64,000 nucleotides of DNA from Arcobacter arenosus (GTDB lineage: Bacteria > Campylobacterota > Campylobacteria > Campylobacterales > Arcobacteraceae): NCBI RefSeq assembly GCF_005771535.1, contig NZ_VANU01000006.1, forward strand, positions 1 to 64,000. The letters are read 5' to 3'. This document shows positions 4,917 to 17,546 of this stretch, one piece after another. The translations under genes and the position numbers were made by a program. A model generated the notes under the pieces. The model was given only the letters and a program-made list of their open reading frames with translations, was not told the DNA's origin and ran no database searches. The stretch's first letter is position 1. Each line of letters starts with the position of its first letter.

Positions 4917-5037
4917 TTTTTCCCTTGTATAACATTATTGATAGCTTTAGCTAGGTTTTTAACAATAAATATATCCTATCATTCTTAAACTTTTGGTTAT
5001 TTGGAAGTAATTTAAGTTAACTATAGGTGGATATAAA

Positions 5038-5865
5038 TTATTTTATGTCTTGAATTATTTCTTTAAAAAAGTCTTCATAACAACAGTTATGTGTTGCATT
5101 AACACTTTTTAATTTTATGTTCTCTTTATTACTAAATTTTTTTATATATGATTGAGTAACTTTATATGGAATTATACTATCCTTTGTTCCAATTAAATGA
5201 TATTGTTTTATTGATTTAAGATTATTAGTATAATTAACTGGATTTAATGAGCCTGTTAATGGCTGAAATTTTTTTATTTTGGTCCAAAGCTCTGTATCTA
5301 AATTCCCTGCAATACTAATAAAATATGTTACATCATTTCTTTGATTTGCTATTAATGATGCAATTGCTGCACCGCCACTATAACCAATAAAAATAAAGTT
5401 ATCATTTTGAAAATTATTTTTGATTTTGTCTATTATTTTATTAGTTGCAAATATAATTTGTTTACTGAATCTATGACTTGTCCAATCTTTTTTACTGCAA
5501 TGATTATCATTTGTATATTGACAAGCTCTTGCAATATAAACTTTACATTGATATTTGTCTTTTAAAAGTAAATTGAAAGTTGTTGGAGTAAGTGGTGTTG
5601 GATCATCTGAAATTAGATGTCTGGTTATCCAAGCTAAACCATCGCCTTCGAAATAAACATGTACATTTTTGCAAGTATTGTTTTGCTGTTGAATTGTATA
5701 AAAGCTATATGTATCTGTATGAATTGTTTTAGTAATATAATTAGAATTAGGAATTAAAGCTTGTAATTTTTGAATTCTTTGTTGTTTTGATGGTATATTT
5801 CTACTGCAAGAAGTAAAAATAAGAATGATTATAAAAGTTAGTAAAACTATTTTCTTATTTAGCAA
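5038..5865 (-). CDS. Lipoprotein of the alpha/beta-hydrolase fold
   Basis: This 275-residue protein has a type II signal peptide with lipobox FTSC (lipidated Cys20), so it should be anchored in the envelope. The hydrolase nucleophile elbow GYSGG places Ser163 as nucleophile; Asp229 (GTKDS) and His259 (NATHNC) complete a plausible triad in the correct order. The substrate could be an ester or peptide and is not evident. Extra cysteines (65, 107, 115, 123, 261, 262) may form periplasmic disulfides. The start is TTG at 5865; no nearby in-frame ATG was found. It lies alone between a kinase gene and the autotransporter gene. Confidence 0.72.
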   Translation of the reverse strand: MLNKKIVLLTFIIILIFTSCSRNIPSKQQRIQKLQALIPNSNYITKTIHTDTYSFYTIQQQNNTCKNVHVYFEGDGLAWITRHLISDDPTPLTPTTFNLLLKDKYQCKVYIARACQYTNDNHCSKKDWTSHRFSKQIIFATNKIIDKIKNNFQNDNFIFIGYSGGAAIASLIANQRNDVTYFISIAGNLDTELWTKIKKFQPLTGSLNPVNYTNNLKSIKQYHLIGTKDSIIPYKVTQSYIKKFSNKENIKLKSVNATHNCCYEDFFKEIIQDIK

Positions 5866-5891
5866 GTTTATATATCTCTTTTTGATTATTT

Positions 5892-5925
5892 AAAGGGGAA
5901 AAGGTATTTCCTCCTTTTTCCCTTT
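5892..5925 (-). terminator. Hairpin after the autotransporter gene
   Basis: The 13-base arms 5892-5904 and 5913-5925 pair as AAAGGGGAAAAGG with CCTTTTTCCCTTT (one G-T pair), leaving an 8-base loop. It lies 25 bp past the stop codon of the autotransporter gene and before the TTG of the hydrolase gene. The T-run after the stem on the minus strand is short, so termination may be partial. Confidence 0.5.
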
Positions 5926-5950
5926 ATAATAGATATTATTGAAATATCTA

Positions 5951-7738
5951 TTAGAAATTAATTACATATTTTACAGAGATTGTGTTATTTGAATAGTCAC
6001 TTCCCTCACCAGAATATTCATATGTGAAGTTTATATTACTGTTATTATTTAATTGTTTTTCATATCCTAATCCAATGGCATATGAAATTCTTCCATTATC
6101 TATTGATTCAGAATCTGCCAACTGCAATCCACCTTGAGTTGTTGATGTTACCGTATCATCATTATTTTCTAAATCATATCCTAAATCTAATGTTGTAATA
6201 AAAATAGAACTATCATCTATTTTATAGTTTGATACAGCACCTATATTTAATAGTGTTTCACTAGTTGAGAATTTATTAACATCTAAACTAGCAACTCCTG
6301 CTCCACTTTCAGAATATGAAGGTGCTTTAAAGTAAGTATAGCTTAAACCTACAGTTGGTTGTACTAACCATTTACCATTTACTTGATAATCTCTCATCAC
6401 CTTTAAATCAATACTTGCTACATTACTTGTATAGTCAGCTACTGCATCTCCTGTTAAAGTTTCTCTAAATGTATCAGTCATTTGCCAAGAGTATCCTACT
6501 TGATAAAGAAATTTTGTTTTATTATCAATAATTGGAGTACTTCCATATCCTAAGATTGTAAAGGCATCTACATCAGAGTTTTGGTTAACTCCATTTACAT
6601 CAACATCTGCATTTGTATAGAATAATCCAAAACCTAATTGTTGGTCATCTTTATTTATAGCATCAGCTCCTATACCAAATCCATATGATTTGATATCATA
6701 TCCTGCTAAACCATCTTTGTCATTTTGTTCACCCCAAGTGCCAAATGGTTTAAACCAGAAGTTTTTTTCAGTAAACATCTCTTCACCAGAGTTTCCTCCT
6801 GCTAATCCAAATGTTCCTTGTCTTTGTCTTACTATTTTAGCTATTGATTGGGCTGTTTGTTTTGCAGCACTAACTCCAGCTCCAGCTAGTTTTACTTCTA
6901 GTTCATCTACTGCATTTGCAACACATTCGTCTGTTGTACAAGTATCTAAAATTGTTTTGAAATCATCCATCCCTGTTCCAACAAAATCATCAAGTTTTTG
7001 AGCATTTCTTTGAGATGGAGTATTTCCATTTCCAGCTACTGTTTGGTCAAAATAACTAGAAAGTAATTGTGTAAGACCAACATTGATATTATCTAATGCT
7101 AAATTGAAGACGCCTTGATTATCTTCTTGCCAAAAACGTAAAATCACATCTTGTCCAACATAAGATGCTAAATCAGCAGTTAAGTCAATCTCTTTTGTTG
7201 TCCAATCAATAATTGCTGGATCACCACTTTCTGTTTTAAATCCAGTTACAATTATATCTCCTGCATTGTATACAGTTGGATCAGAACCTGGCTTTAAAAC
7301 ATCAAAACGAGCCTGCTGTGTTTGTGCACCATTATAATTAAAAGAATCAGGAGTAAAATAAGAACCAGCATTATTCCTAATAGCATAATCAAAGAATAGT
7401 TTATTGGTCCCTGATGTAACATTAAAAGCTTGTGATAAAATACTTAATCCTGGGCTACTTTGTGAAGTATATACATATTGATCTGCAGTTAATGAAGGAT
7501 TAATTGTCCCAGCACTTGCATTTGTTGTTCCTGTTGCAAGAGTAACTGGATTTGCACTACCAAATACATTTGTAGTCCATCCATTTAATCCATCTTCAAA
7601 ATTACCATTTACAATATCAGCATTAACATTAATTGTACCAATAGAAGCACTTAATAATAAAGTACTTACAAATATTGAAACTTTACCATTTTTAAATATT
7701 TGGAAAAGAGTTTTATTATCTATTCTTTGTTTAGACAT
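5951..7738 (-). CDS. Autotransporter (type Va secretion) with C-terminal beta-barrel
   Basis: The 595-residue protein starts with a long signal peptide (about 1-41, hydrophobic core FVSTLLLSA, cleavage near NVNA). The passenger region (about 42-320) opens with NGNFEDGLNGWTT, which resembles a secreted beta-sandwich or carbohydrate-binding-like fold, and includes a Cys pair (TCTTDEC). Residues from about 325 to 595 have alternating hydrophobic strands with many Gly/Tyr/Asn and end in a terminal Phe (VKYVINF), as in autotransporter barrels assembled by the BAM complex. Function is probably surface adhesion or an exported passenger; no protease motif is seen. It is monocistronic, with its 5' side facing the displaced fliP fragment. 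Confidence 0.82.
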   Translation of the reverse strand: MSKQRIDNKTLFQIFKNGKVSIFVSTLLLSASIGTINVNADIVNGNFEDGLNGWTTNVFGSANPVTLATGTTNASAGTINPSLTADQYVYTSQSSPGLSILSQAFNVTSGTNKLFFDYAIRNNAGSYFTPDSFNYNGAQTQQARFDVLKPGSDPTVYNAGDIIVTGFKTESGDPAIIDWTTKEIDLTADLASYVGQDVILRFWQEDNQGVFNLALDNINVGLTQLLSSYFDQTVAGNGNTPSQRNAQKLDDFVGTGMDDFKTILDTCTTDECVANAVDELEVKLAGAGVSAAKQTAQSIAKIVRQRQGTFGLAGGNSGEEMFTEKNFWFKPFGTWGEQNDKDGLAGYDIKSYGFGIGADAINKDDQQLGFGLFYTNADVDVNGVNQNSDVDAFTILGYGSTPIIDNKTKFLYQVGYSWQMTDTFRETLTGDAVADYTSNVASIDLKVMRDYQVNGKWLVQPTVGLSYTYFKAPSYSESGAGVASLDVNKFSTSETLLNIGAVSNYKIDDSSIFITTLDLGYDLENNDDTVTSTTQGGLQLADSESIDNGRISYAIGLGYEKQLNNNSNINFTYEYSGEGSDYSNNTISVKYVINF

Positions 7739-7834
7739 TATTTTCCTTTTGAAAATTATTATAATTTAATTTTTGATATATTATCCAAATTATTATTATA
7801 ATCTACTAAGGAATTATTTTATAAATAGCTAATG

Positions 7835-8094
7835 TTATTTAAAGGACTGTGCGAGGTTTCCTATAATCAATGCCCAACCATCAATTACAATAAAAAAGAT
7901 GATTTTTATGGGTAAAGATATCATTACAGGAGGTAGCATCATCATCCCTAAGGACATAAGTATGGAAGCAACAATAATATCAATTACTAAAAAGGGTAAG
8001 AAGATTAAAAAGCCTATTTCAAAGGCTGTTTTTAATTCACTTACAATAAATGCAGGCATTAATAAGGTTAAAGGTACATCATCAATATTTTTAG
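7835..8094 (-). pseudogene. fliP: Displaced 3' end of fliP (left end of the integrated element)
   Basis: These 260 bases encode the last 85 or so residues of FliP in frame, ending QSFK and stop, but have no upstream part. Reading back past 8094 the frame diverges from FliP and soon meets a stop. It matches the 3' end of the complete fliP at 14543-15274 base for base from 7839 to 8094. The last Lys codon and stop are AAA TAA here and AAG TGA in the complete gene. It is best explained as the original chromosomal 3' end, cut off when the element inserted. An internal ATG opens a 74-codon frame, but nothing suggests that it is used. Confidence 0.93.
7839..8094. repeat. 256-bp direct repeat, left copy (attL region)
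   Basis: This copy is identical at every base I compared to 14547-14802, with a constant offset of 6,708 bp. Both copies lie in the same orientation and flank the integrase-bearing element. The repeat runs from the wobble base of the last fliP codon to a point about 85 codons upstream, so it contains the crossover site, which cannot be placed more exactly because the copies are identical. Confidence 0.95.
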
Positions 8095-8098
8095 TGAT

Positions 8099-8117
8099 GT
8101 TGCTTAAATGTTGCTAA
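8099..8117. promoter_or_regulatory. Candidate integrase arm-binding sites, left end
   Basis: Two abutting motifs, GTTGCTTAAA (8099-8108) and ATGTTGCTAA (8108-8117), begin 5 bp inside the left repeat boundary and end 4 bp before the integrase stop codon. Both 10-mers recur at the right end of the element (14410-14419 and 14434-14443). Short repeats shared by the two ends next to the att region are what arm-type sites of tyrosine integrases look like. No binding evidence exists. Confidence 0.5.
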
Positions 8118-8121
8118 CTTC

Positions 8122-9165
8122 TTAGTAGATTGATTTATCTAATGGTATTCTATCCTTCTCTGATTCAATGAATTTAGAGTAAACGTTAAACAGATATTCT
8201 GTCGTTGTATGTCCCATTAGATGTGCAATCTCTGTTACTTTGAAGTAGCCTGAATTTAGCATATTTGTTGCAAATGTATGTCTCAATTCATAGATTCTTC
8301 TTCTTTTTAGTCCTAATCTATCTAATAATGGATACCAATGAAACTCACATATACTACCTGTGTGACACCAAGGTTCATCAAGCTTTGAATTAAAGACATA
8401 CTCTAGATGACCTGTAAGTTCTCTTTGCTTTTGGATAAAACCTCTTACAGTATCAAAAATTGGAATATCTCTAACTGAACTTACTGTTTTTGGTTCGGTG
8501 TCTATTCCTCTATCTCGTGTAGCTCTGATATAGATATACTTATCATCTATGTTAGACCATTTTAAGGCTAACATTTCACCACTTCTTAATCCTGTATGAC
8601 TAGCAAGACCAATGTAATTATGAAGCCATCCTGTTGTATTTTCTAGAAGTAGTCTAACTTCATCAGCAGAAAAGGGAACTATTATTGGTTTTTTCTTTTT
8701 TCTTTTCTTTATGCTCTTGAATGGATTATTTGTAATTACACCATCAAAAACTGCTTCCTGTAAGATACCACTAAAAATAGTAATGTATAACTCAACAGAT
8801 TTGGCTGTCTTATTGAGGTTATACTGTGTATGGATATAGTTTTTTGCTATAGTATAGTTGATATCTGTAACTTTCTTTTTACCATATTGGTTAAGAATCC
8901 ACTTGTCTATAGTATTCTTGTATCTTTTATATGTAACTTCTTTAGCCAGATGTTTTTTACCTTCAAGAAACTTTTTGATATAAAACTCTAGCTTAATGTC
9001 TGAAGTAGGGTATTTTAAGCTATTAACAAAATTTGGCATAATCTCTAATTGAACCTTTAGTCTGTTTTCTTTTGTATCAGTTAACCCTGTTGATTTTCTG
9101 TGTTGTTTTCCATCTACTCTCACATTCATGTGGAGTATATTTCTATATGTATAAATTGAAGCCAA
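8122..9165 (-). CDS. int: Tyrosine-recombinase integrase of the fliP element
   Basis: The 347-residue protein has an N-terminal arm-binding-like region (1-50, basic, IYTYRNILHMNVRVDG), a SAM-like core-binding domain (about 55-150) and a catalytic domain (about 165-347). Catalytic residues visible are Arg194 (HTGLRSGE), hairpin Lys226, Arg295 (ELRHTF), His319 (LMGHT) and the nucleophile Tyr329 (NVYSKF). The first His of the HxxR box is Tyr292 here. It would catalyse integration and, with help, excision between attP and the fliP 3' end. Its stop lies 27 bp from the left repeat, typical for an integrase beside its attachment site. No excisionase gene is recognised. Confidence 0.93.
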   Translation of the reverse strand: MASIYTYRNILHMNVRVDGKQHRKSTGLTDTKENRLKVQLEIMPNFVNSLKYPTSDIKLEFYIKKFLEGKKHLAKEVTYKRYKNTIDKWILNQYGKKKVTDINYTIAKNYIHTQYNLNKTAKSVELYITIFSGILQEAVFDGVITNNPFKSIKKRKKKKPIIVPFSADEVRLLLENTTGWLHNYIGLASHTGLRSGEMLALKWSNIDDKYIYIRATRDRGIDTEPKTVSSVRDIPIFDTVRGFIQKQRELTGHLEYVFNSKLDEPWCHTGSICEFHWYPLLDRLGLKRRRIYELRHTFATNMLNSGYFKVTEIAHLMGHTTTEYLFNVYSKFIESEKDRIPLDKSIY

Positions 9166-9288
9166 GTTAAACTCCCTTTCAATAAAAAGAGTTTGGAAAT
9201 GTAAAAGAACTCATGTATAAAAATCACATTATAACTTTACTTTATGTAGAGTTAAAACTAGTTTAGTAATCTAATCTCTAGATATGGA

Positions 9289-9326
9289 CTAAAGTAATAT
9301 GTGCCTTTTTATGCATATTACTTTAG
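9289..9326. terminator. Long perfect hairpin between the element's lipoprotein and integrase genes
   Basis: A 13-bp perfect stem (9289-9301 with 9314-9326, arm CTAAAGTAATATG) has a 12-base loop. On the plus strand it is followed by a T-rich run. It begins 4 bp after the stop codon of the minus-strand lipoprotein gene at 9330. It probably ends the lipoprotein transcript and insulates the integrase gene from it. Confidence 0.6.
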
Positions 9327-9329
9327 TTT

Positions 9330-10082
9330 TTATATTAAATTATCTTCAAGAACAGAAAAAACAATTTTTTCATTATCTAAAGAATGGATTTTAATTAATA
9401 AATTTCTAAATCTAATTTGATTTTTATTCTTACTGTATGTTAAATTTTGAAAAAATGATGGTCTAGCTAAATCATCTTTTGTGTATTCTCTGTAAGTTAA
9501 CATGAAAGAATCTTTATTTAAACCTGTATAAATCAACTCATAATTAATTTGACCTTTAGACATTTCATTACTTGTGCTAGTAACAGTTTTAAACCTAACA
9601 GATTTAGGTTTGTGTTCATAAGTATAAAGTACTGTAACAGCACTTCCTGCATTCATACCATACTTAATAACATTGGCAATTTTATTGTGTATAGAACCAT
9701 TTTCTTTAATTAATAGATGTTTTGAGTCAAGTTTTCTATTAGTTATTGCTGTATATGTAATATTATCAATTTTCCAAGACCCCGAAATAGTAAATAAGTC
9801 ATCTTTAAAAAATCTTATTTGATTGTTTGAACTGTTAGTATTGAAAGTAAAATCTTCAGTTGGTTTCATTAGGTTAGAACTTTTGGTAATTTTATTATAG
9901 TTGTTGACTCTTATCATTGTTGCACCAACATAAGAGCTTTGTTTCTTGTTTAACTCATAATTTTTGTAAACAATTGATTCTTCTTCTATTACATGGTAAG
10001 TATTAACATAACCAAATCTTTTGGCACAACCAGAAAAAACTATTAATATAAATATTGGAACTAATATATATTTTTTAATCAC
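9330..10082 (-). CDS. Lipoprotein of unknown function, cargo of the fliP element
   Basis: The 250-residue protein has a type II signal peptide with lipobox FSGC (Cys19), so it is exported and lipidated. The mature part is rich in polar beta-strand-like stretches with many Lys, Asn, Ser and Thr. I recognise no family. It is the only exported product of the element, has its own terminator hairpin, and lies between the two recombinase genes. Mobile elements often carry lipoproteins that block superinfection or change the surface. That role is only a possibility here; no sequence feature proves it. Confidence 0.65.
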   Translation of the reverse strand: MIKKYILVPIFILIVFSGCAKRFGYVNTYHVIEEESIVYKNYELNKKQSSYVGATMIRVNNYNKITKSSNLMKPTEDFTFNTNSSNNQIRFFKDDLFTISGSWKIDNITYTAITNRKLDSKHLLIKENGSIHNKIANVIKYGMNAGSAVTVLYTYEHKPKSVRFKTVTSTSNEMSKGQINYELIYTGLNKDSFMLTYREYTKDDLARPSFFQNLTYSKNKNQIRFRNLLIKIHSLDNEKIVFSVLEDNLI

Positions 10083-10142
10083 TTTAAATCCTTTTTTTAT
10101 AATGCTACAGATTATATTTGTTTCTTACTTAATTTACAATAA

Positions 10143-10775
10143 TTAAAGACCTCTCTTCTTTAAGTAAGTAGAGAGGCTTTGAACGCTACAGTTACTCTTA
10201 CCCATTACAGGTTCTAAATGATTCTTAACAATTTTGTTTAAAGATAAACCTAACTCTTTTAATTCAATGATTCTATTCTTGTGTTCATCATACTTTGAAG
10301 CTTGTATGGTTCCTTTTGGTTTACCTAACTCAATACCTAATGCTTTACGTGCTTTTAATGCCTCTTTAGTTCGTTGAGAGATTAAATCACGCTCAAGCTC
10401 AGCAAAAAGACTCATAAGTGTAATCATAGCCTTTGATATGAAGTCGTTTTTATTGTTTGGATTTACTACTAGTTTCTGTTTTACTATGTGTAACTCGACT
10501 TTGTGGCTCATTAGTTTGTCAATCGTTTGTAATACCTCTTGTGTACTCCTACCAAGCCTTGACATCTCACTAACGATAACAGTATCTCCACTTTTGATTT
10601 TGTCAAATAGTTCATCAAGTTTTCTATCTCTTTCTGACTTGCGAGTACTCATTTTAACCTCAAGCCATTCAACTTTACCATTAAGAGAGTTATTATTACA
10701 GTAGTTAAGAATCTCATTTCTTTGGTTTTCAACTGTTTGCTTATCAGTTGAAACTCTTAGATATCCTAGTGTCAT
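10143..10775 (-). CDS. Serine recombinase (resolvase/invertase family)
   Basis: The 210-residue protein starts with the catalytic strand MTLGYLRVSTDKQ (nucleophile Ser9, Arg7). It continues with the SEMSRLGRST box and the E-helix region (AELERDLISQRTKEAL), and ends with a helix-turn-helix (about 165-210, LGLSLNKIVKNHL). Length and order fit small resolvases/invertases of the Tn3/Pin type. In an integrating replicon such an enzyme would most simply resolve multimers of the circular form. No invertible segment is visible. A set of inverted repeats lies directly upstream of the gene (10788-10888) and could be its recombination site. Confidence 0.92.
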   Translation of the reverse strand: MTLGYLRVSTDKQTVENQRNEILNYCNNNSLNGKVEWLEVKMSTRKSERDRKLDELFDKIKSGDTVIVSEMSRLGRSTQEVLQTIDKLMSHKVELHIVKQKLVVNPNNKNDFISKAMITLMSLFAELERDLISQRTKEALKARKALGIELGKPKGTIQASKYDEHKNRIIELKELGLSLNKIVKNHLEPVMGKSNCSVQSLSTYLKKRGL

Positions 10776-11420
10776 GTTAGTCCTTTCAAGTCTTAACCTT
10801 TTTATACTTACAATTCTATCATTTTATAAACTTTTAGTCAAGTATAAAAATTTATAAAATACTAGATATTTAATGATGATTAAGACTTAAAAGTTGTGAC
10901 GTGCTTTAATTTTTTGTTTAGTAGGACACAAAAAGATATAAAATGTATTGTTTAATAGAGGGGTGGGTTTAAGTAAGTATGAAGCTTTTTTATTGATTTG
11001 GGCTTAGTAATACTTAAAGAGTGTAAAAGAAGAATTGTACGGACATTTGATAACAAATTCATAATTTTACTTAGTAAGTGCTTAGTTGACTTGACAAGTG
11101 TACAATTTATTATTATAATTGTACTCAATATATGCATAGCCCTCTATCTATGTATCTTTTAAAGTTCTTACGAACTTAACATCAGCATTAATGTTTACTC
11201 GCTCGAGTGCAAGATATTAAATGTTGATTATATTTTCAGATTTCAGAACACAGTCGTCCATACCCTTTTAATGCCTAAAATAATGTGATTACTTCATAAA
11301 AATAATTCTGCATTTTAAACTACCATGTATAGACAATAAATAATACTCCATTTTTTTAACAGCACTAATAAATAGTATTACACATTAAATTTACGGAGTA
11401 ACTCATTAGAAAGGATTTAT
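10776..11420. other. 645-bp noncoding region between the recombinase and replication genes
   Basis: This is the longest gene-free stretch in the window. Besides the repeats at 10788-10888 it holds several palindromes: ACTTAGTAAGT (11069-11079), GTACAATT with its complement (11100-11107 and 11117-11124), and a hairpin AAGTTC/GAACTT (11162-11177). AATAAATA occurs twice close to the replication gene (11334-11380). It must contain the promoters of both divergent genes. The dense AT-rich dyads beside a replication gene also make it the best place for the element's replication origin. No convincing protein-coding frame was found. Confidence 0.4.
10788..10888. other. Interleaved inverted repeats, candidate res site for the serine recombinase
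   Basis: Three pairs of inverted repeats lie within 101 bp just upstream of the recombinase ATG: AAGTCTTAA (10788-10796) with 10880-10888; TTTTTATACTT (10799-10809) with 10840-10850; ATTTTATAAA (10821-10830) with 10851-10860. Small serine recombinases often bind several dyad subsites next to their own gene, which also lets them repress it. The repeats are visible; the function is inferred. Confidence 0.45.
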
Positions 11421-13592
11421 ATGAGTAAAAACAATTTAAAAACTGTATTTTCTAATACGAAATACAAAAACAGATTAACATCAACATTAGATAGTAAGTA
11501 TACATACAAGTTTACAGTATTACCTACTGTTGAAGGTTTAACAAAAAAACAGTGTATTAACTTATTAGTTAAAACTTCTATGCATAGCAAAACCGTTGCA
11601 CTTAATTCTATAGTAGATATTAAAGCAGTGTGTAAGTCTACTATTATTTGTCCAGCAGTATTTAAAAAAGAAGCTCCAAAATGGGTTGATGATAATGTCA
11701 AGTCTATAGACTTTATTTCTTTAGACATAGATAGTGGAATGACCATGGAGGAGGCTCAATCAATTCTTGATAAAAATGAACTTAGTTATATATTATACAC
11801 ATCTAAATCTCATACATCAAAGAAACACAAATTTCATATTATTGTAGCTTTATTAAAACCTATCAAGGATAAAGATATTAAACAAAAATATAAAGCTACT
11901 TGGCAATATCTTCATGAGTTACTTGAGTGTAAAACAGACCCTGCATGTAAAAACCCTTCAAGGGCATTATTACCATCAGCTATAGATGGAATTGTAATTG
12001 ATAAACTATATAGAAATGATTTATATCTAGGAACAGAATTACTAAATAAATATAAATATGTAGTAAAAACATATGATGAAGCAACGGGTACAGGTAAAGT
12101 TCATCCTGATTTTATAAAGCAGATAGAGAATATCAATCCAAATTTAATAAAAGATGATGAAACTGATTTTATTTTAAGATATAAACGAGATATTAATGAC
12201 CCCGTTGGTAATTTATTCTGCTATTACCCACAAAATGTTAAATGTATATTTGATTTAACAAAAAGTGCAACGACAGATTTACTTTTTTCAAATTATGATT
12301 ATGAATATTCATTTAAACCTGAAGCAATTAGAACTGATATACAACAAAAGATTAAAAATGCAATTGAGAAACATCATGATGATTTTGATATTATAGGATT
12401 TGATTTTGTAAAAACAGTTATTGTTGCAAATGAAGGTGTAGGTAAAACTAGAGCTATACTTGAAAATTGTAAAAAATTTCATGTTATCTATGCATGCGAC
12501 ACAACAAAAAGAATTATTGAGATGAAAGAAAGTTTTCAAGAAGAAGGAATTGATACTTTAGTATGTTATTCAAACAAAGAAATTATGGAACAGCTAAATA
12601 TCAGTCCTAGTATCATTGAATCCTATAGTAAAAAAATGCAAGAAGGTAATGATACAAAAGAATTTATAAATGAAGTTATCAATGATTCTCAACAAGCTCA
12701 AAATTTGTTGGATGCAATACAAGAGAACAACAAAAAAATTCTCAGGAGAGATGTTACAGTATTGCTTACAACTGAGAAATTAAAAGTTCTTCTAAAAAGA
12801 TACATAAAAGAAGAGTCATTATCCCTTATAGTTTTAGATGAATTTGAAGTTAAAGATTTTTATCCAGTGGTGGAACTAAAAGAAAAATCAAAGAAAGTTA
12901 CACTTTCTGAAATAAATTTTTATAATGATTTAATTAGATTAGAAAAGAATAATAGTTTGATTGATTTGTTATGTAACCGTTCAGCAATTATTCTTACAAC
13001 TGAAAAGGAAAAAGTAAAAAGAGTATTTTATAACAAGTCTGACTATCCAATTAGAGATTTTACGAAAAAACTAAAAACAGATAACATTAAATATCTTTTA
13101 ACTTCATCAACTAGTAATGTAAAAATAGAAAAAGAAACAAATCGAGACAATGTAATTAAAAAAGTACTAGGATTATACCCTGAGATTGATGAGGTGATTT
13201 GTGATGCTTCAGATAAAAAAGATTCTACGCATTTAAGTGTTAGAGGAAGTGATAACTATAAACAGCTTAACACATTAGTAGTAGGGCATTATCCTAGTCC
13301 AGTAGAACATTATTTATTTTTTAAAGCCTCAGAAGAATATTACAAAGATAAATTTGGAGATGATAAAGAAGCAATCGCAATGGATATAAACTGTATTATA
13401 ATGAGTACAAAAGTTAGTCAATCTATTGGACGAAATAGTGGTTTCAGAGACTGTGGAAAGTTTTGTTATGTAATTCTACCGATGTTAAGAAGTAGTAATT
13501 GTTATACATTTAAAAGTTCTAGTGGAGTTAAGTTAGACTTTGACTTAAATTATGTTAGTTCTAATGTTGAAAGATTAGATATAGAAGGTTAA
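11421..13592 (+). CDS. Primase-helicase-like replication protein of the element
   Basis: The 723-residue protein reads as two modules. The N-terminal part (about 1-200) resembles archaeo-eukaryotic-type primases (PrimPol): an acidic pair in FISLDIDSG (Asp102, Asp104), then YTSKSHTSKKHKFHIIV with the Ser/His and basic residues expected after it, and a later DPACKNPSRALLPSA stretch. The C-terminal part has a P-loop (ANEGVGKT, Lys342), a Walker B LDEF (Asp473) and a helicase motif VI-like QSIGRNSGFR (Arg671). It probably starts replication of the excised circle. Start at ATG 11421 with AGAAAGGA upstream. Family assignment is by motif only; the C-terminal fold could also be a non-helicase P-loop ATPase. 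Confidence 0.7.
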   Translation: MSKNNLKTVFSNTKYKNRLTSTLDSKYTYKFTVLPTVEGLTKKQCINLLVKTSMHSKTVALNSIVDIKAVCKSTIICPAVFKKEAPKWVDDNVKSIDFISLDIDSGMTMEEAQSILDKNELSYILYTSKSHTSKKHKFHIIVALLKPIKDKDIKQKYKATWQYLHELLECKTDPACKNPSRALLPSAIDGIVIDKLYRNDLYLGTELLNKYKYVVKTYDEATGTGKVHPDFIKQIENINPNLIKDDETDFILRYKRDINDPVGNLFCYYPQNVKCIFDLTKSATTDLLFSNYDYEYSFKPEAIRTDIQQKIKNAIEKHHDDFDIIGFDFVKTVIVANEGVGKTRAILENCKKFHVIYACDTTKRIIEMKESFQEEGIDTLVCYSNKEIMEQLNISPSIIESYSKKMQEGNDTKEFINEVINDSQQAQNLLDAIQENNKKILRRDVTVLLTTEKLKVLLKRYIKEESLSLIVLDEFEVKDFYPVVELKEKSKKVTLSEINFYNDLIRLEKNNSLIDLLCNRSAIILTTEKEKVKRVFYNKSDYPIRDFTKKLKTDNIKYLLTSSTSNVKIEKETNRDNVIKKVLGLYPEIDEVICDASDKKDSTHLSVRGSDNYKQLNTLVVGHYPSPVEHYLFFKASEEYYKDKFGDDKEAIAMDINCIIMSTKVSQSIGRNSGFRDCGKFCYVILPMLRSSNCYTFKSSSGVKLDFDLNYVSSNVERLDIEG

Positions 13593-13610
13593 GAGAGCGT
13601 AATGCTCTCT
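13592..13610. terminator. Bidirectional hairpin between converging genes
   Basis: AGAGAGC (13592-13598) pairs with GCTCTCT (13604-13610) around a 5-base loop. It starts at the last base of the replication gene's stop codon and lies 13 bp before the end of the converging gene at 13623, so it probably serves both. Confidence 0.6.
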
Positions 13611-13622
13611 ACTTTTAATATT

Positions 13623-14255
13623 TTATTTATCAATCACTTCAATACCATCTTTATTTATTAAATATTTAAGAATGTCTTTTCCAAGAAAACTAGTATCGTA
13701 AATTTTAACTTCATTTTTTACTAAATCTAGTTCCAATTGTACTCTATTTCCATTCAATAAACATATGTAGTCATTGTTTTTTTCTTTAATTAATAGATGT
13801 TCCTTCTTTTTAATAATTTTAGTTTCATTTGATAACATAAATGCAATGACTATAGCAACTATAATGCTTAGTGGACCAAAAATTAGAAAAAGAACTATAC
13901 TTATCCATAATGTATGAATTAAAAACATGAAAATACTAAACTCTTTTTTTGTCTTTTCCTCTTGTAGTAATTCAATTTTTTTATTTGTAGATTGTATAAT
14001 TTTAAAATCAATTTTTGAAAAATTGGTTTCAATTAAATTAAGTAACTTTTCTATTTTTTCTTCTTTACTCTGTTCAGGTATTTTTTCCATGATTATATCA
14101 ATTTTATTATCTTCAGATATTCTTACATTAATACCCACTTCAGGTATTGTTGAACTGTACCAATCATCTAAATCAAATTTTCGTTTATCATTGTTTGATA
14201 AAATTATAATTCCACTTCCTGTATTACTATTATATGCTGCAATTTTACCTATCAT
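13623..14255 (-). CDS. Membrane protein with cold-shock-like N-terminal barrel, element cargo
   Basis: The 210-residue protein begins with MIGKIAAYNSNTGSGII, followed by KFDLDDW and a VGINVRI strand (1-55). This pattern resembles the five-strand cold-shock/OB barrel seen at the N-terminus of some small membrane proteins. A charged helix (about 65-100) precedes two close membrane helices (about 103-142, with a GPLS turn). The C-terminal 65 residues are polar and probably cytoplasmic. No known function follows from this. It is transcribed away from the right end of the element and toward the replication gene. Nucleic-acid binding at the membrane is one possibility, unproven. Confidence 0.6.
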   Translation of the reverse strand: MIGKIAAYNSNTGSGIIILSNNDKRKFDLDDWYSSTIPEVGINVRISEDNKIDIIMEKIPEQSKEEKIEKLLNLIETNFSKIDFKIIQSTNKKIELLQEEKTKKEFSIFMFLIHTLWISIVLFLIFGPLSIIVAIVIAFMLSNETKIIKKKEHLLIKEKNNDYICLLNGNRVQLELDLVKNEVKIYDTSFLGKDILKYLINKDGIEVIDK

Positions 14256-14409
14256 TAAAAATCCTTAAAATAATAAATTAGTATATACTTTGCTAGCTTA
14301 AAATTGAAATAATATTTATTTAGAGGATAATATTGTTTTTGTTGTAAGTAAGTTTATAGTTTCTTATTAATTAATAAATGCAAAATCTCATAACTTAAAA
14401 CAAGTAGTA

Positions 14410-14443
14410 ATGTTGCTAATTTGTTGATTTTTTGTTGCTTAAA
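14410..14443. promoter_or_regulatory. Candidate integrase arm-binding sites, right end
   Basis: ATGTTGCTAA (14410-14419) and GTTGCTTAAA (14434-14443) repeat the two 10-mers found at 8099-8117. They lie about 100 bp inside the right copy of the fliP repeat. Together with the left pair they bracket the element, as arm-type sites of an attP would. Confidence 0.5.
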
Positions 14444-14494
14444 GTTGTGATTTTTACACTAGAGGTTAGTTTACATTCCAATACTCTTAAGTTA

Positions 14495-14514
14495 GACAAT
14501 ACAAGTGTATTGTC
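14495..14514. terminator. Perfect short hairpin just after restored fliP
   Basis: GACAATACA (14495-14503) pairs with TGTATTGTC (14506-14514) across a 2-base loop, 28 bp past the fliP stop on the minus strand. There is no T-run. It may stop fliP transcripts before they enter the element, or be a protein-binding dyad in the attP region. It is element DNA, so the element changes what lies downstream of fliP. Confidence 0.4.
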
Positions 14515-14542
14515 ACCTAATCTAAAATCTCTACAAACCCCG

Positions 14543-15274
14543 TCACTTAAAGGACTGTGCGAGGTTTCCTATAATCAATGCCCAACCATCAATTACAATA
14601 AAAAAGATGATTTTTATGGGTAAAGATATCATTACAGGAGGTAGCATCATCATCCCTAAGGACATAAGTATGGAAGCAACAATAATATCAATTACTAAAA
14701 AGGGTAAGAAGATTAAAAAGCCTATTTCAAAGGCTGTTTTTAATTCACTTACAATAAATGCAGGCATTAATAAGGTTAAAGGTACATCATCAATATTTTT
14801 AGGGTTTTCTTCTTTTTTGATTCTATAAAATAGGGCTAAGTCTTTTTCTCTAGTATTTTTTATCATAAACTCTTTAAAGGGTTTTACTCCCTCTTCAAAG
14901 GCTTGTTCATAACCAATAACTTCATCCATATAAGGCTTTACACCAACATCCCATGACCTTTTTGCATATGGTTCCATAATAAATATTGTCATAATTAGTG
15001 CAAGTGATACAATAATTTGGTTTGGGGGAGTTTGTTGTAAACCCATTGCTTGTCTAAGTAGTGAAAATACGATTAATAGTCTTGTAAAACTTGTAATCAT
15101 TAGCAATAAAGATGGCGCTAAAACAAGTAGTGCAAGTATTATTGCTATATTGATTGTTCTTACAAATTGTGCTGGTTGTTCAAGTGCTGCAACAGATAAG
15201 TTTACAACAGGAAGTTGCTCTTCCGCTGCAAAAAGTGTTATTGAAAATATTAATAAACTTAGAAGTAATCTCAA
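14543..15274 (-). CDS. fliP: Flagellar type III export gate protein FliP (restored copy)
   Basis: FliP is part of the inner-membrane export gate (FliPQR with FlhA/FlhB) through which rod, hook and filament subunits pass. The 243-residue protein has a cleavable-type N-terminal signal (MRLLLSLLIFSITLFAAE) and the family stretches SFTRLLIVFSLLRQAMG, QTPPNQIIVSLALIMT and [21 protein letters not shown], with a normal C-terminus. Its last 256 bases belong to the direct repeat and are supplied, at least in part, by the inserted element. The protein is therefore intact. It is not in a flagellar operon here; mrdA lies upstream with a 59-bp gap. Confidence 0.95.
   Translation of the reverse strand: MRLLLSLLIFSITLFAAEEQLPVVNLSVAALEQPAQFVRTINIAIILALLVLAPSLLLMITSFTRLLIVFSLLRQAMGLQQTPPNQIIVSLALIMTIFIMEPYAKRSWDVGVKPYMDEVIGYEQAFEEGVKPFKEFMIKNTREKDLALFYRIKKEENPKNIDDVPLTLLMPAFIVSELKTAFEIGFLIFLPFLVIDIIVASILMSLGMMMLPPVMISLPIKIIFFIVIDGWALIIGNLAQSFK
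14547..14802. repeat. 256-bp direct repeat, right copy (attR region)
   Basis: This copy is identical to 7839-8094. It forms the 3' third of the complete fliP. The repeat ends within the last codon: the base before it (14546, C) differs from the left copy (7838, T) but gives the same amino acid, Lys. Confidence 0.95.
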
Positions 15275-15333
15275 TCAAAATCCCTAAAAAAATCTTAAAT
15301 TTGGTGTATGTTAGCCAAAATATGATTAATATG

Positions 15334-17109
15334 TTATTTATTCTTTATATATCCCATTTCAAGCAATTTATCATAAATCTGACTTACAACTTTACCTGCC
15401 GCACTTCCACCATGCCCACCATGCTCAACTAAAACTGTTACTACATATTGTGGATTTTTATAAGGTCCATAGGTTGTAAGCCAAGCATGAGATCTGTGGT
15501 AATACTCCAATTCACTCTCTTTCATTCTTACTTTTTCTTCTTGTGGTATAGTAACAACTTGAGCAGTACCTGTTTTACCTGCAATTGTTACTTTAGAATT
15601 TATATAATTTGTTGCTGTACCTTTTTTATGGTTAATTACTTCATACATACCTTTTCTAATAATTTTCATATGAGCTGGATTAAATTTAATCTCTTTTGGT
15701 TCTTCAAAATTATCTTTTGCAAAATGGGGTTTTGGAAGTTTACCAGATGCTAAAAAAGCAGTATATCTTGCAATTTGCATTGGTGTTACAGACATATAAC
15801 CTTGCCCAATAGAGGCATTAATAGTATCTCCAATATACCAAGGTTGCTTAAACTTATGTTGTTTCCAATCTTTATTTGGATTTGTTGCATAAAATTCGTT
15901 TGTAAGTTCAATTCCTGTTTCTTCGCCAATTCCATATTTAGCTAAAGTTTTTGATATTTTATTTATACCAATTTCTAAACTACCTTTATAAAAAAAGTCA
16001 TCACAACTTTCTCTAATAGCTTTTGTAAAACCAACTCTTCCATGTCCAGTTGTTTTCCAACATCTAAAGTTTCTTCGACCAATTTTTATAAAACCATTAT
16101 CATAAACTTCAAAATCAGGTTTTAGTCCATTTTCCAAAAATGAAAGTGCGATTCCCATTTTGATAACAGAACCAGGGGGATATTTACCATTTACAAGTTT
16201 ATTTGTGAAAGGGTGGTTGAAATCATTTCTCATAGCTTCCCAATCTTTTACTGAGATACCATCTACAAATATATTATTATCAAACTCTGGATAAGAACCT
16301 GCAGCTAAAACCTCTCCATTATTTGAGTCCATTACTATAACTGCACCACTTTTACCTTCAAAAATTTTTTGAATATATTTTTGTAATTCAATATCAATTG
16401 AAGTATGTAGGTCATTATTTGATGTGGGTTCAATTTCATCTAAAACTTCAATCTCTTTATTTAGAGCATTTACTTTAATACTTTTTTCACCAAGTTTTCC
16501 TTGAAGTTTATTATTGTAGTATTTTTCTAAACCATTTTTACCAATAATCCCACTATATTTTGAAAATTCATTATTTTCAATATCTCTTTTTGTAGCTTTT
16601 CCAACATAACCAATTATATGAGAACCATTTTTACCATATGGATATACTCTTTTTACTTCAGGTTTAATTTTTATATCATCGTTTGAATTAAAGATTGTAT
16701 ATTTATCAAAAAAGTCATCATAAGGAATAAATTCGATTACCTTCACAAAATCATGTTTATAGTTTGAGTCTAGTTTTTTATATTCTTTATATAACTTTTC
16801 TTTTTCATATTGAGGTAAGTGTTTATTAATTAATGTAACAAGTTGATCTAGTTTATACATATTTTTATAAGATCTTAAATGGGGTTTTATATTTATTGAA
16901 AAACCAATTTTATTCATGGCAAGTGGTACGCCATTTCTATCTTTGATAATACCTCTATTGGGTACTTCAAAAACTTTTTTAATATAGTTTCTTTTTGAAA
17001 GCTCTTCATAATATGTATTTGATTTAATACTTAGAAAATAAACTCTAGATAATAAAGTTAACAATACAATAAAGATTAAAATCAGGGCTATATTAACTCT
17101 ATTTTTCAA
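15334..17109 (-). CDS. mrdA: Penicillin-binding protein 2, peptidoglycan transpeptidase
   Basis: PBP2 crosslinks side-wall peptidoglycan as part of the elongasome (with RodA and the Mre proteins). The 591-residue protein has one N-terminal membrane anchor (about 5-25), a pedestal domain (PNRGIIKDRNG, IIGYVGK, GKNGLEKYY) and a transpeptidase domain with the active-site serine in PPGSVIKM (Ser314, Lys317), SCD (SxN motif position) and AGKTGTAQ near 517. Length fits the family. It overlaps the upstream MreD-like gene by 4 bp, so the two are translated together. Confidence 0.95.
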   Translation of the reverse strand: MKNRVNIALILIFIVLLTLLSRVYFLSIKSNTYYEELSKRNYIKKVFEVPNRGIIKDRNGVPLAMNKIGFSINIKPHLRSYKNMYKLDQLVTLINKHLPQYEKEKLYKEYKKLDSNYKHDFVKVIEFIPYDDFFDKYTIFNSNDDIKIKPEVKRVYPYGKNGSHIIGYVGKATKRDIENNEFSKYSGIIGKNGLEKYYNNKLQGKLGEKSIKVNALNKEIEVLDEIEPTSNNDLHTSIDIELQKYIQKIFEGKSGAVIVMDSNNGEVLAAGSYPEFDNNIFVDGISVKDWEAMRNDFNHPFTNKLVNGKYPPGSVIKMGIALSFLENGLKPDFEVYDNGFIKIGRRNFRCWKTTGHGRVGFTKAIRESCDDFFYKGSLEIGINKISKTLAKYGIGEETGIELTNEFYATNPNKDWKQHKFKQPWYIGDTINASIGQGYMSVTPMQIARYTAFLASGKLPKPHFAKDNFEEPKEIKFNPAHMKIIRKGMYEVINHKKGTATNYINSKVTIAGKTGTAQVVTIPQEEKVRMKESELEYYHRSHAWLTTYGPYKNPQYVVTVLVEHGGHGGSAAGKVVSQIYDKLLEMGYIKNK

Positions 17110-17546
17110 ATTAGAACTCCAAATAAGATAAAATCAATTATAAGATTAATTACTAAAATTGCTACAAAATAAAAGCTTATTTGATGGTCAATTGACCAAA
17201 CAATTGTAACACCTAAATAAAATACTGTCATATAAATATAACTATTTAAACTACTAAAAGTGAAAATTCTATTAATATTTGGTACTAAAAAAACATATAC
17301 AAAAGTTGCAAGTAGAAATAAGGATAATGGCTTAAATCCATTATTTAATTCAATAAAAGTTAATGCAAGAATTACAACAGTAAAAGAATAATAATATCTT
17401 TTTTTAAGGCACACAAAAAATGCCATAAATAAAATTCCTAAGGTTAAAATAGGGAAAAATATTATTGATGATATTGTATTAACTATAACAATTGCAATAG
17501 CAAGTAATACTATAAAAAAAGGATTATCAAGATTGTTGAGTCTCAT
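17106..17546 (-). CDS. Small polytopic membrane protein, MreD-like
   Basis: The protein has 146 residues with four to five hydrophobic helices and few charges. Its position directly upstream of and overlapping mrdA by 4 bp, its size and its topology fit the rod-shape protein MreD, which sits in the elongasome. Sequence motifs in this family are weak, so the call rests mainly on context. It might instead be a lineage-specific elongasome membrane protein. Confidence 0.55.
   Translation of the reverse strand: MRLNNLDNPFFIVLLAIAIVIVNTISSIIFFPILTLGILFMAFFVCLKKRYYYSFTVVILALTFIELNNGFKPLSLFLLATFVYVFLVPNINRIFTFSSLNSYIYMTVFYLGVTIVWSIDHQISFYFVAILVINLIIDFILFGVLI

Follow-up and report, generated by a model that had tools for sequence, protein, structure and literature searches.

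A probable 6.7-kb integrative element that uses the flagellar export gene fliP as its integration site in Arcobacter arenosus

The window analysed here, a stretch of 64,000 nucleotides of Arcobacter arenosus (positions 1 to 64,000 of contig NZ_VANU01000006.1, assembly GCF_005771535.1), contains two copies of the 3' end of the flagellar export gene fliP, which form a direct repeat identical at 256 of 256 bp with a spacing of 6708 bp and enclose five open reading frames (ORFs; coordinates in Table 1). The ORF next to the left copy encodes a tyrosine integrase on the minus strand that is transcribed toward this fliP tail, in the same direction as the tail, and its stop lies 27 bp (8095-8121) from the repeat. 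The left copy is a displaced tail, whereas the right copy is part of an intact gene for full-length FliP, whose last 86 residues are 100% identical to those of three relatives (G061, G065 and G058; G and L numbers are our designations for genomes and loci). Past the repeat, the tails diverge at the last codon (AAA TAA in the displaced tail, AAG TGA in the intact gene). This layout of a displaced tail on the left and a rebuilt gene on the right agrees with the original prediction, made from the letters of this DNA, which took fliP to be the integration site of a mobile element. A perfect 256-bp repeat is far above chance expectation, a search of the whole 3.13-Mb genome at E 0.001 revealed no third copy, and both copies sit inside one 201.7-kb contig. 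The locus has the hallmarks of a gene-restoring integrative element: a tyrosine integrase adjoining one attachment (att) site, direct repeats, an intact target on one side and its displaced, probably native, end on the other.

On the basis that related integrases adjoin fliP elsewhere, that three of these loci have empty counterparts and that the integrases form one clade, we conclude with a probability of roughly 93% that the window holds an integrative element of ~6.7 kb, which inserts into fliP by means of its integrase and restores the gene with a tail of its own. The tyrosine integrase would join a site on the circle to one inside fliP, most likely the 27 bp that code for the methionine loop MMLPPxMIS. 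The site on the element would be followed by the element's own copy of the fliP 3' end, and integration would fuse the chromosomal 5' part to this tail such that full FliP is encoded, and would leave the native tail beside the integrase gene as a non-functional remnant. Recombination by this very integrase, like excision and transfer of the circle, is inferred. The original prediction also held that such an element could spare motility, as the unchanged encoded FliP would allow.

To find related integrases we searched 104 genomes of the family and 398 of the order (some genomes being common to both), considering matches at E 1e-40 or better in the order. Among the matches listed, the integrase genes or fragments of at least 55% identity adjoin fliP in five of five cases: the window, G061, G020, G092 and G164. 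Intact relatives lie beside a fliP tail in G061 (58-59% identity) and in G164, a member of another family (55%). In G020 a C-terminal integrase fragment, 86% identical over its 99 C-terminal residues, lies beside such a tail, and in the decayed locus of G092 an intact fliP is followed by a 573-aa ORF and an N-terminal integrase fragment of 68% identity. The next-scoring integrase of the order search (41% identity) is located at a tRNA-Leu gene, and at 15 of the 26 integrase loci examined a tRNA gene lies within ~120 bp of the integrase end. The tree of 40 integrases, which omits the partial ones (G020, G092 and L058) and lower-ranked loci, unites the three fliP integrases of full length in a single clade with a support of 100/100; its other members comprise 19 with a tRNA gene at most 400 bp from the integrase stop and 18 without one at that distance. 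In other sequence collections the matches are distant: all plasmid integrases fall below 60% identity (28% for the best among the matches listed), the nearest phage integrase among the matches listed is that of Nitratiruptor phage NrS-1 (33%), and a scan of genome contigs with short peptide patterns gave three distant integrase matches (21-26%), these patterns being poor enough to miss G061-like integrases too. Scans of viral contigs (IMG/VR) with short peptide patterns revealed no relative of the integrases, the FliP tail or the 723-aa protein encoded by the element. The integrase could instead be a bystander on a plasmid-like circle that carried a fliP fragment and entered by homologous recombination, for which 256 bp of perfect identity would suffice and which the possible replication gene on the element would suit, but this is very improbable given that related integrases lie beside fliP elsewhere with different cargo and that the tails of G061, G020 and G164 start alike.

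We then asked if fliP 3' duplications occur with or without the integrase. A search with the last 86 FliP residues yielded a match in 92 of the 104 family genomes, three of which (the window's genome, G061 and G020) have a fliP tail apart from an intact gene, although for G020, whose assembly is 76% complete, no intact fliP copy was found. The order search, with a match in 323 of 398 genomes, added G164 as a tail carrier. In all four carriers of a displaced tail a related integrase adjoins it. Conversely, no FliP-tail fragment lacking a related integrase, the finding named beforehand as evidence against the prediction, was detected at E 0.01 in the 104 family genomes, nor in the 398 order genomes after a recheck of the 15 that had unexplained second matches, with the limit that a short or diverged tail could escape both searches. 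These 15 belong to the 18 order genomes with at least two FliP-tail matches, the other three being the window's genome, G061 and G164. G114 and G126 each carry two whole FliP genes, G394 has overlapping contig ends (146 bp at 97%), and in G398 the scaffold contains N gaps. The second matches of the other 11 genomes are weak (E > 5e-4), with stops in 10 of 11; in G073 the second match is likewise a whole FliP. The fliP scaffold of G398 (L122, 1150-2150) combines N gaps with a diverged internal repeat and is probably an assembly artefact. Apart from the repeat as such and these artefacts at fliP in G394 and G398, nothing speaks for an assembly artefact or a simple tandem fliP duplication in the window, and we consider either hardly credible, as both copies lie inside one long contig and the arrangement recurs in G061 and G164, each with empty sites.

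The empty sites reveal the direction of insertion. For G061, the kinase and cupin genes located past its displaced tail come right after fliP in G062, G063 and G055, and from the fliP stop onward G062 and G063 are near-identical to the G061 flank. For G164, five of the 33 other genomes that gave a flank match were aligned; in four of them (G419, G290, G434 and G349) the flank of the G164 displaced tail lies at most 13 bp from the end of the FliP match, and in the fifth, G251, it lies farther away. For G092, comparison with G099 indicated that the native sequence resumes right at the fliP end, ~5.1 kb downstream (L055 position 12147), and the insertion is likewise absent from G093 and G090, such that the site is empty in three of four genomes fetched (G094 was uninformative). 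In G061 and G164 the integrase-side tail is joined to native fliP-downstream sequence; on the strength of the empty sites, it is therefore the native tail, and the tail of the working gene is element-borne. Because of these empty sites in the relatives, the displaced copy of the window is by analogy probably the native one as well. Comparison across the relatives shows the target, the direction of insertion and the restored reading frame.

The tails of these elements have diverged without altering the protein. Between the displaced tail of G164 and the tail of its working gene, 12 sense codons and the stop differ, and all 12 changes are synonymous, such that the encoded protein is the same, whereas random single changes in this tail would be silent ~23% of the time. 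The two tails of G061 differ by one silent change and those of the window by one silent change and the stop. The fliP piece carried by the element is retained as FliP-coding sequence, and the element-borne tail of G164 stands for a case in which selection held a piece of a host gene on a mobile element in coding shape.

The relatives also narrow down the crossover site. The identity block between the two tail copies spans 44 bp in G164, up to the silent changes, and 42 bp starting with GATGATG in G061. If both elements use one site, it should lie within the 27-bp overlap GATGATGCTTCCNCCTGNNATGATTTC, which encodes MMLPPxMIS, though later mutation or gene conversion could blur these limits. The G020 tail begins at the same GGATGATG, and the tails of G061, G020 and G164 all begin at or slightly upstream of these codons. 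The window's own data bound the core to the 256-bp repeat, and the probable core marked for it in Table 1 is taken over from G061 and G164. The methionine loop gates the export channel, and its first and last Met are reported to be 99% conserved across ~2500 homologues in the part of the study drawn on here (PMC8239009). We ranked DNA conservation in 56 fliP genes from the order, namely the window's gene and those of 55 selected loci (14 are same-genus; an M-loop-like motif was required and 55 of 55 passed). The 20-bp stretch from the first Met codon came 1 of 710, a rank that at three decimals it shares with two other stretches, and the 27-bp core, which starts two bases later, came 7 of 703. 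A rerun on 38 of 40 loci outside the genus, in which the M-loop motif was not required and an ISLP motif, absent from the other two, was used instead, placed the stretch at 2 of 710 and the core at 8 of 703; first place went to a stretch that starts close by. The probable core is among the best-conserved portions of fliP, without being uniquely at the top.

All three intact elements have a short, element-specific motif in co-oriented copies past the stop of the integrase gene and past that of fliP (TTAGCAACAT/TTAAGCAACA for the window, ATCCACA for G061 and AATAATCTAC for G164), which could represent arm-type binding sites. Sharing of motifs between the two ends of the window element gave p values of 0.0004 (8-mers) and 0.015 (longest match); as the test regions were picked after the motifs had been seen, the window result alone is persuasive by itself. 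The right sites lie at similar distances from the MMLPP core in all three elements, 230 and 207 bp in the window, 217 and 228 bp in G061, and 236 and 247 bp in G164.

Several observations weigh against an integrative element of this design. First, no empty site with the window's left flank was found among 14 element-free loci of the same genus, fetched 0.8 to 9 kb past fliP, and the left-flank genes (autotransporter and lipase-like) do not occur near fliP in these loci. Second, Pfam and PHROG gave no recognisable gene for excisionase or transfer in the window. Third, given the threshold of E 1e-40, weaker integrase fragments may exist away from fliP in the order. Fourth, G061 has weak arm repeats (p 0.06 and 0.12), and those of G164 are moderate (0.05 and 0.02). 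Finally, the left sites are 166-176 bp from the core in the window versus 61 bp in G061 and 76 bp in G164, and the window repeat extends 151 bp farther upstream than the tails (~110 bp) of G061 and G020, with these 151 bp of fliP occupying the position of the spacer at the left end.

We read this last discrepancy as a left end that may have been remodelled in the window element, with the core retained at MMLPP. An illegitimate join between the arm next to the integrase and fliP codons located upstream of the core, arising through an imprecise circle or through a tandem duplication of which one copy was then lost by site-specific recombination, has somewhat better than even odds and would refine the integrative-element interpretation rather than oppose it. 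It accommodates a 256-bp repeat next to an integrase whose relatives in G061 and G020 adjoin much shorter tails, left arm sites that abut the repeat while the right arm spacing (207-247 bp) is as in the others, and 100% identity of the extra 151 bp; on the other hand, no intermediate was seen, and a different valid element-borne attachment site (attP) of the same integrase would fit equally. Alternatively, the window integrase could use another fliP site that precedes the methionine loop by ~150 bp, near the codons for NIDDVP, where the repeat ends and the left arm sites adjoin it. We regard such a second site as unlikely, because the closely related G020 fragment lies at a tail that starts with MMLPP, the right arm spacing fits MMLPP, and the NIDDVP stretch ranks only 170 of 710 in DNA conservation in the 56-gene set.

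In the 19 tRNA-associated relatives of the tree the integrase lies near an intact tRNA gene and points at its 3' end, whereas the fliP integrase lies beside the displaced tail and reads along fliP; a switch from tRNA genes to fliP would therefore also have altered the orientation of the integrase. That the ancestor of the fliP clade used a tRNA target is an inference. We tentatively entertain the idea, doubtful as it is, that this clade moved from tRNA-type targets to the methionine-loop codons, where constraint on Met-Met-Met combined with the lack of synonyms for Met would keep the DNA invariant. The 27-bp core ranking seventh to eighth rather than first weighs against it. If the idea holds, each flagellated relative would offer a ready-made site, integrase targets in protein genes would generally fall on stretches of low codon degeneracy, and a site on codons that are fixed by function and partly free of synonyms would be a reason for an integrase to live in a protein gene.

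The belief that most tyrosine-integrase elements use tRNA genes, on which the original prediction drew, finds no support in the TIGER/Islander survey, in which coding sequences harbour 43.4% of ~1.75 million mapped islands (all integrase types pooled, 68% tyrosine) and tRNA or tmRNA genes 33.8% (PMC12424338). Protein genes are common targets, which weakens the description of the target as unusual. Elements usually bring a replacement gene end, with identity blocks of up to ~250 bp at icd, according to the part of PMC10111431 consulted; the icd elements described there share with ours an internal site in a protein gene and an attP with a replacement end, but the target here is fliP and the integrase forms its own clade among the relatives compared, in a tree without icd integrases. 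The dusA islands, as far as covered in the excerpt of PMC4482086, are likewise served by one integrase family acting on a conserved region of one protein gene, with the element supplying a gene end; they replace the 5' end and typically measure 30-60 kb, whereas the fliP elements replace the 3' end and measure 6.7-8.6 kb (a comparison by target and size, as the tree holds no dusA integrases). The tRNA islands ABGI1 and CJIE2/3 of Campylobacterota also have a terminal integrase gene and flanking direct repeats and differ by their target, and ABGI2 and ABGI3 lie outside tRNA genes (PMC2147049, in part). Co-oriented doubled short motifs flank the crossover of the HE-PICIs too, as possible arm sites (PMC10111431, same excerpt), but in the fliP elements the motif differs per element and the spacing differs. 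A 65-kb insertion within fliP of Burkholderia mallei is cited as a cause of motility loss in PMC2743711, a disruption unlike the restored gene of the window element. Literature searches of titles and abstract openings among the matches listed, in which 'fliP' also matches the word flip, gave no fliP attachment site, and none is reported in the portions covered of PMC12884075, PMC8088628, PMC10269605 and PMC8682789. The integration mode is known; the fliP target and the integrase clade appear new within the literature searched, although the TIGER data may list fliP. The known integration targets can be extended by a flagellar export-gate gene, whose five occupied sites span two families and have empty counterparts in three cases, with a narrow probable core. 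The broad host range that had been predicted amounts to two families with few carriers.

Table 1. Coordinates of the element and its fliP repeats in the window
Feature	Position	Strand	Remarks
Displaced fliP 3' end, probably native	7839..8094	-	Native stop TAA beyond (7836-7838); identical to 14547-14802
Probable att core, displaced copy	7917..7943	-	G061 displaced copy matches the window from 7839 to 7943 only
Putative left arm-type sites	8098..8117	-	TTAGCAACAT 8108-8117, TTAAGCAACA 8098-8107, just past the integrase stop
Tyrosine integrase, 347 aa	8122..9165	-	PF00589 E 3.3e-14; PHROG integrase E 2.4e-54; clade with G061 and G164
Putative lipoprotein, 250 aa	9330..10082	-	Weak PHROG 1353 match (E 2.3e-5); lipobox by eye
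Serine recombinase (resolvase/invertase type), 210 aa	10143..10775	-	PF00239 E 5.4e-35
Possible primase/replication protein, 723 aa	11421..13592	+	PHROG 9765 'DNA primase' E 2.5e-9, residues 69-181 only
210-aa protein	13623..14255	-	OB-fold-like start and hydrophobic middle by eye; no Pfam above cut-off
Putative right arm-type sites	14410..14442	-	TTAGCAACAT 14410-14419, TTAAGCAACA 14433-14442
Element end beside rebuilt fliP stop	14526..14542	-	Resembles G061 end (CGGGGTTTGTAGAGATT vs CGGGTTTGTAGAGGTT)
Intact (rebuilt) fliP, 243 aa	14543..15274	-	PF00813 E 6.8e-80; TIGR01103 over cut-off
Second repeat copy within intact fliP	14547..14802	-	3' part probably element-supplied; tail ends AAG TGA
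Probable att core, rebuilt gene	14625..14651	-	FliP methionine-loop codons; 27-bp overlap of G061/G164 identity blocks

As for the element end next to the rebuilt fliP, among the 14 element-free same-genus loci the post-fliP sequence resembles it in G066 only, by eye and to the extent of CGGG. As to the class of the element, a relaxase, a coupling protein and mating-pair genes, as expected of an integrative and conjugative element, were not recognised among the five ORFs. The PHROGs comprise integrase, invertase, a weak primase match and families of unknown function, with no structural, packaging or lysis genes of a prophage. Of the features of satellites akin to phage-inducible chromosomal islands (PICIs), the integrase is present and the primase match weak, with no AlpA or packaging gene recognised. 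PADLOC indicated no convincing defence gene on the element, and an Rfam scan of 5000-17500 gave no match.

Occurrence of the cargo at other loci without fliP sequence, which would have spoken against the prediction, was not established in searches with two of the cargo genes. No full-length relative of the 723-aa protein was found in the 104 and 398 genomes, phages, plasmids or the IMG/VR scan; it has one partial match (57 residues, G023), and its single-sequence fold has a mean predicted local distance difference test score (pLDDT) of 31. The serine recombinase belongs to a family that is common on plasmids, at <60% identity. A 12/12 match to a sigma-70-type promoter (TTGACA, 17, TATAAT) at 11091-11119 (+) lies ~300 nt before the start of the 723-aa ORF and would leave a long untranslated leader.

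The cargo differs among the elements. ArdA is common to G061 and G164, as is a 694/731-aa protein (42% identical) that does not align with the 723-aa protein of the window. The ardA antirestriction genes (L052 5304-5846 in G061, L100 9214-9753 in G164) thus occur on fliP elements of different families. The 694/731-aa protein (L052 10126-12210, L100 3980-6175) displays a GxGKS motif by eye; the G061 copy has no Pfam family, and the G164 copy has one weak plasmid match and no phage match. The decayed island of G092 (L055 7057-12146) comprises the 573-aa ORF, a DUF4214 protein, a phosphohexomutase-like ORF (by eye) and the integrase remnant. Finally, terminator-like hairpins are enriched in 7700-15400 of the window (10 found versus 1.4 expected from shuffles), for example at 13592-13610 and at 9286-9329, where the stem has 18 pairs; a single hairpin of the fliP repeat, counted on two strands and in two copies, accounts for four of the ten.

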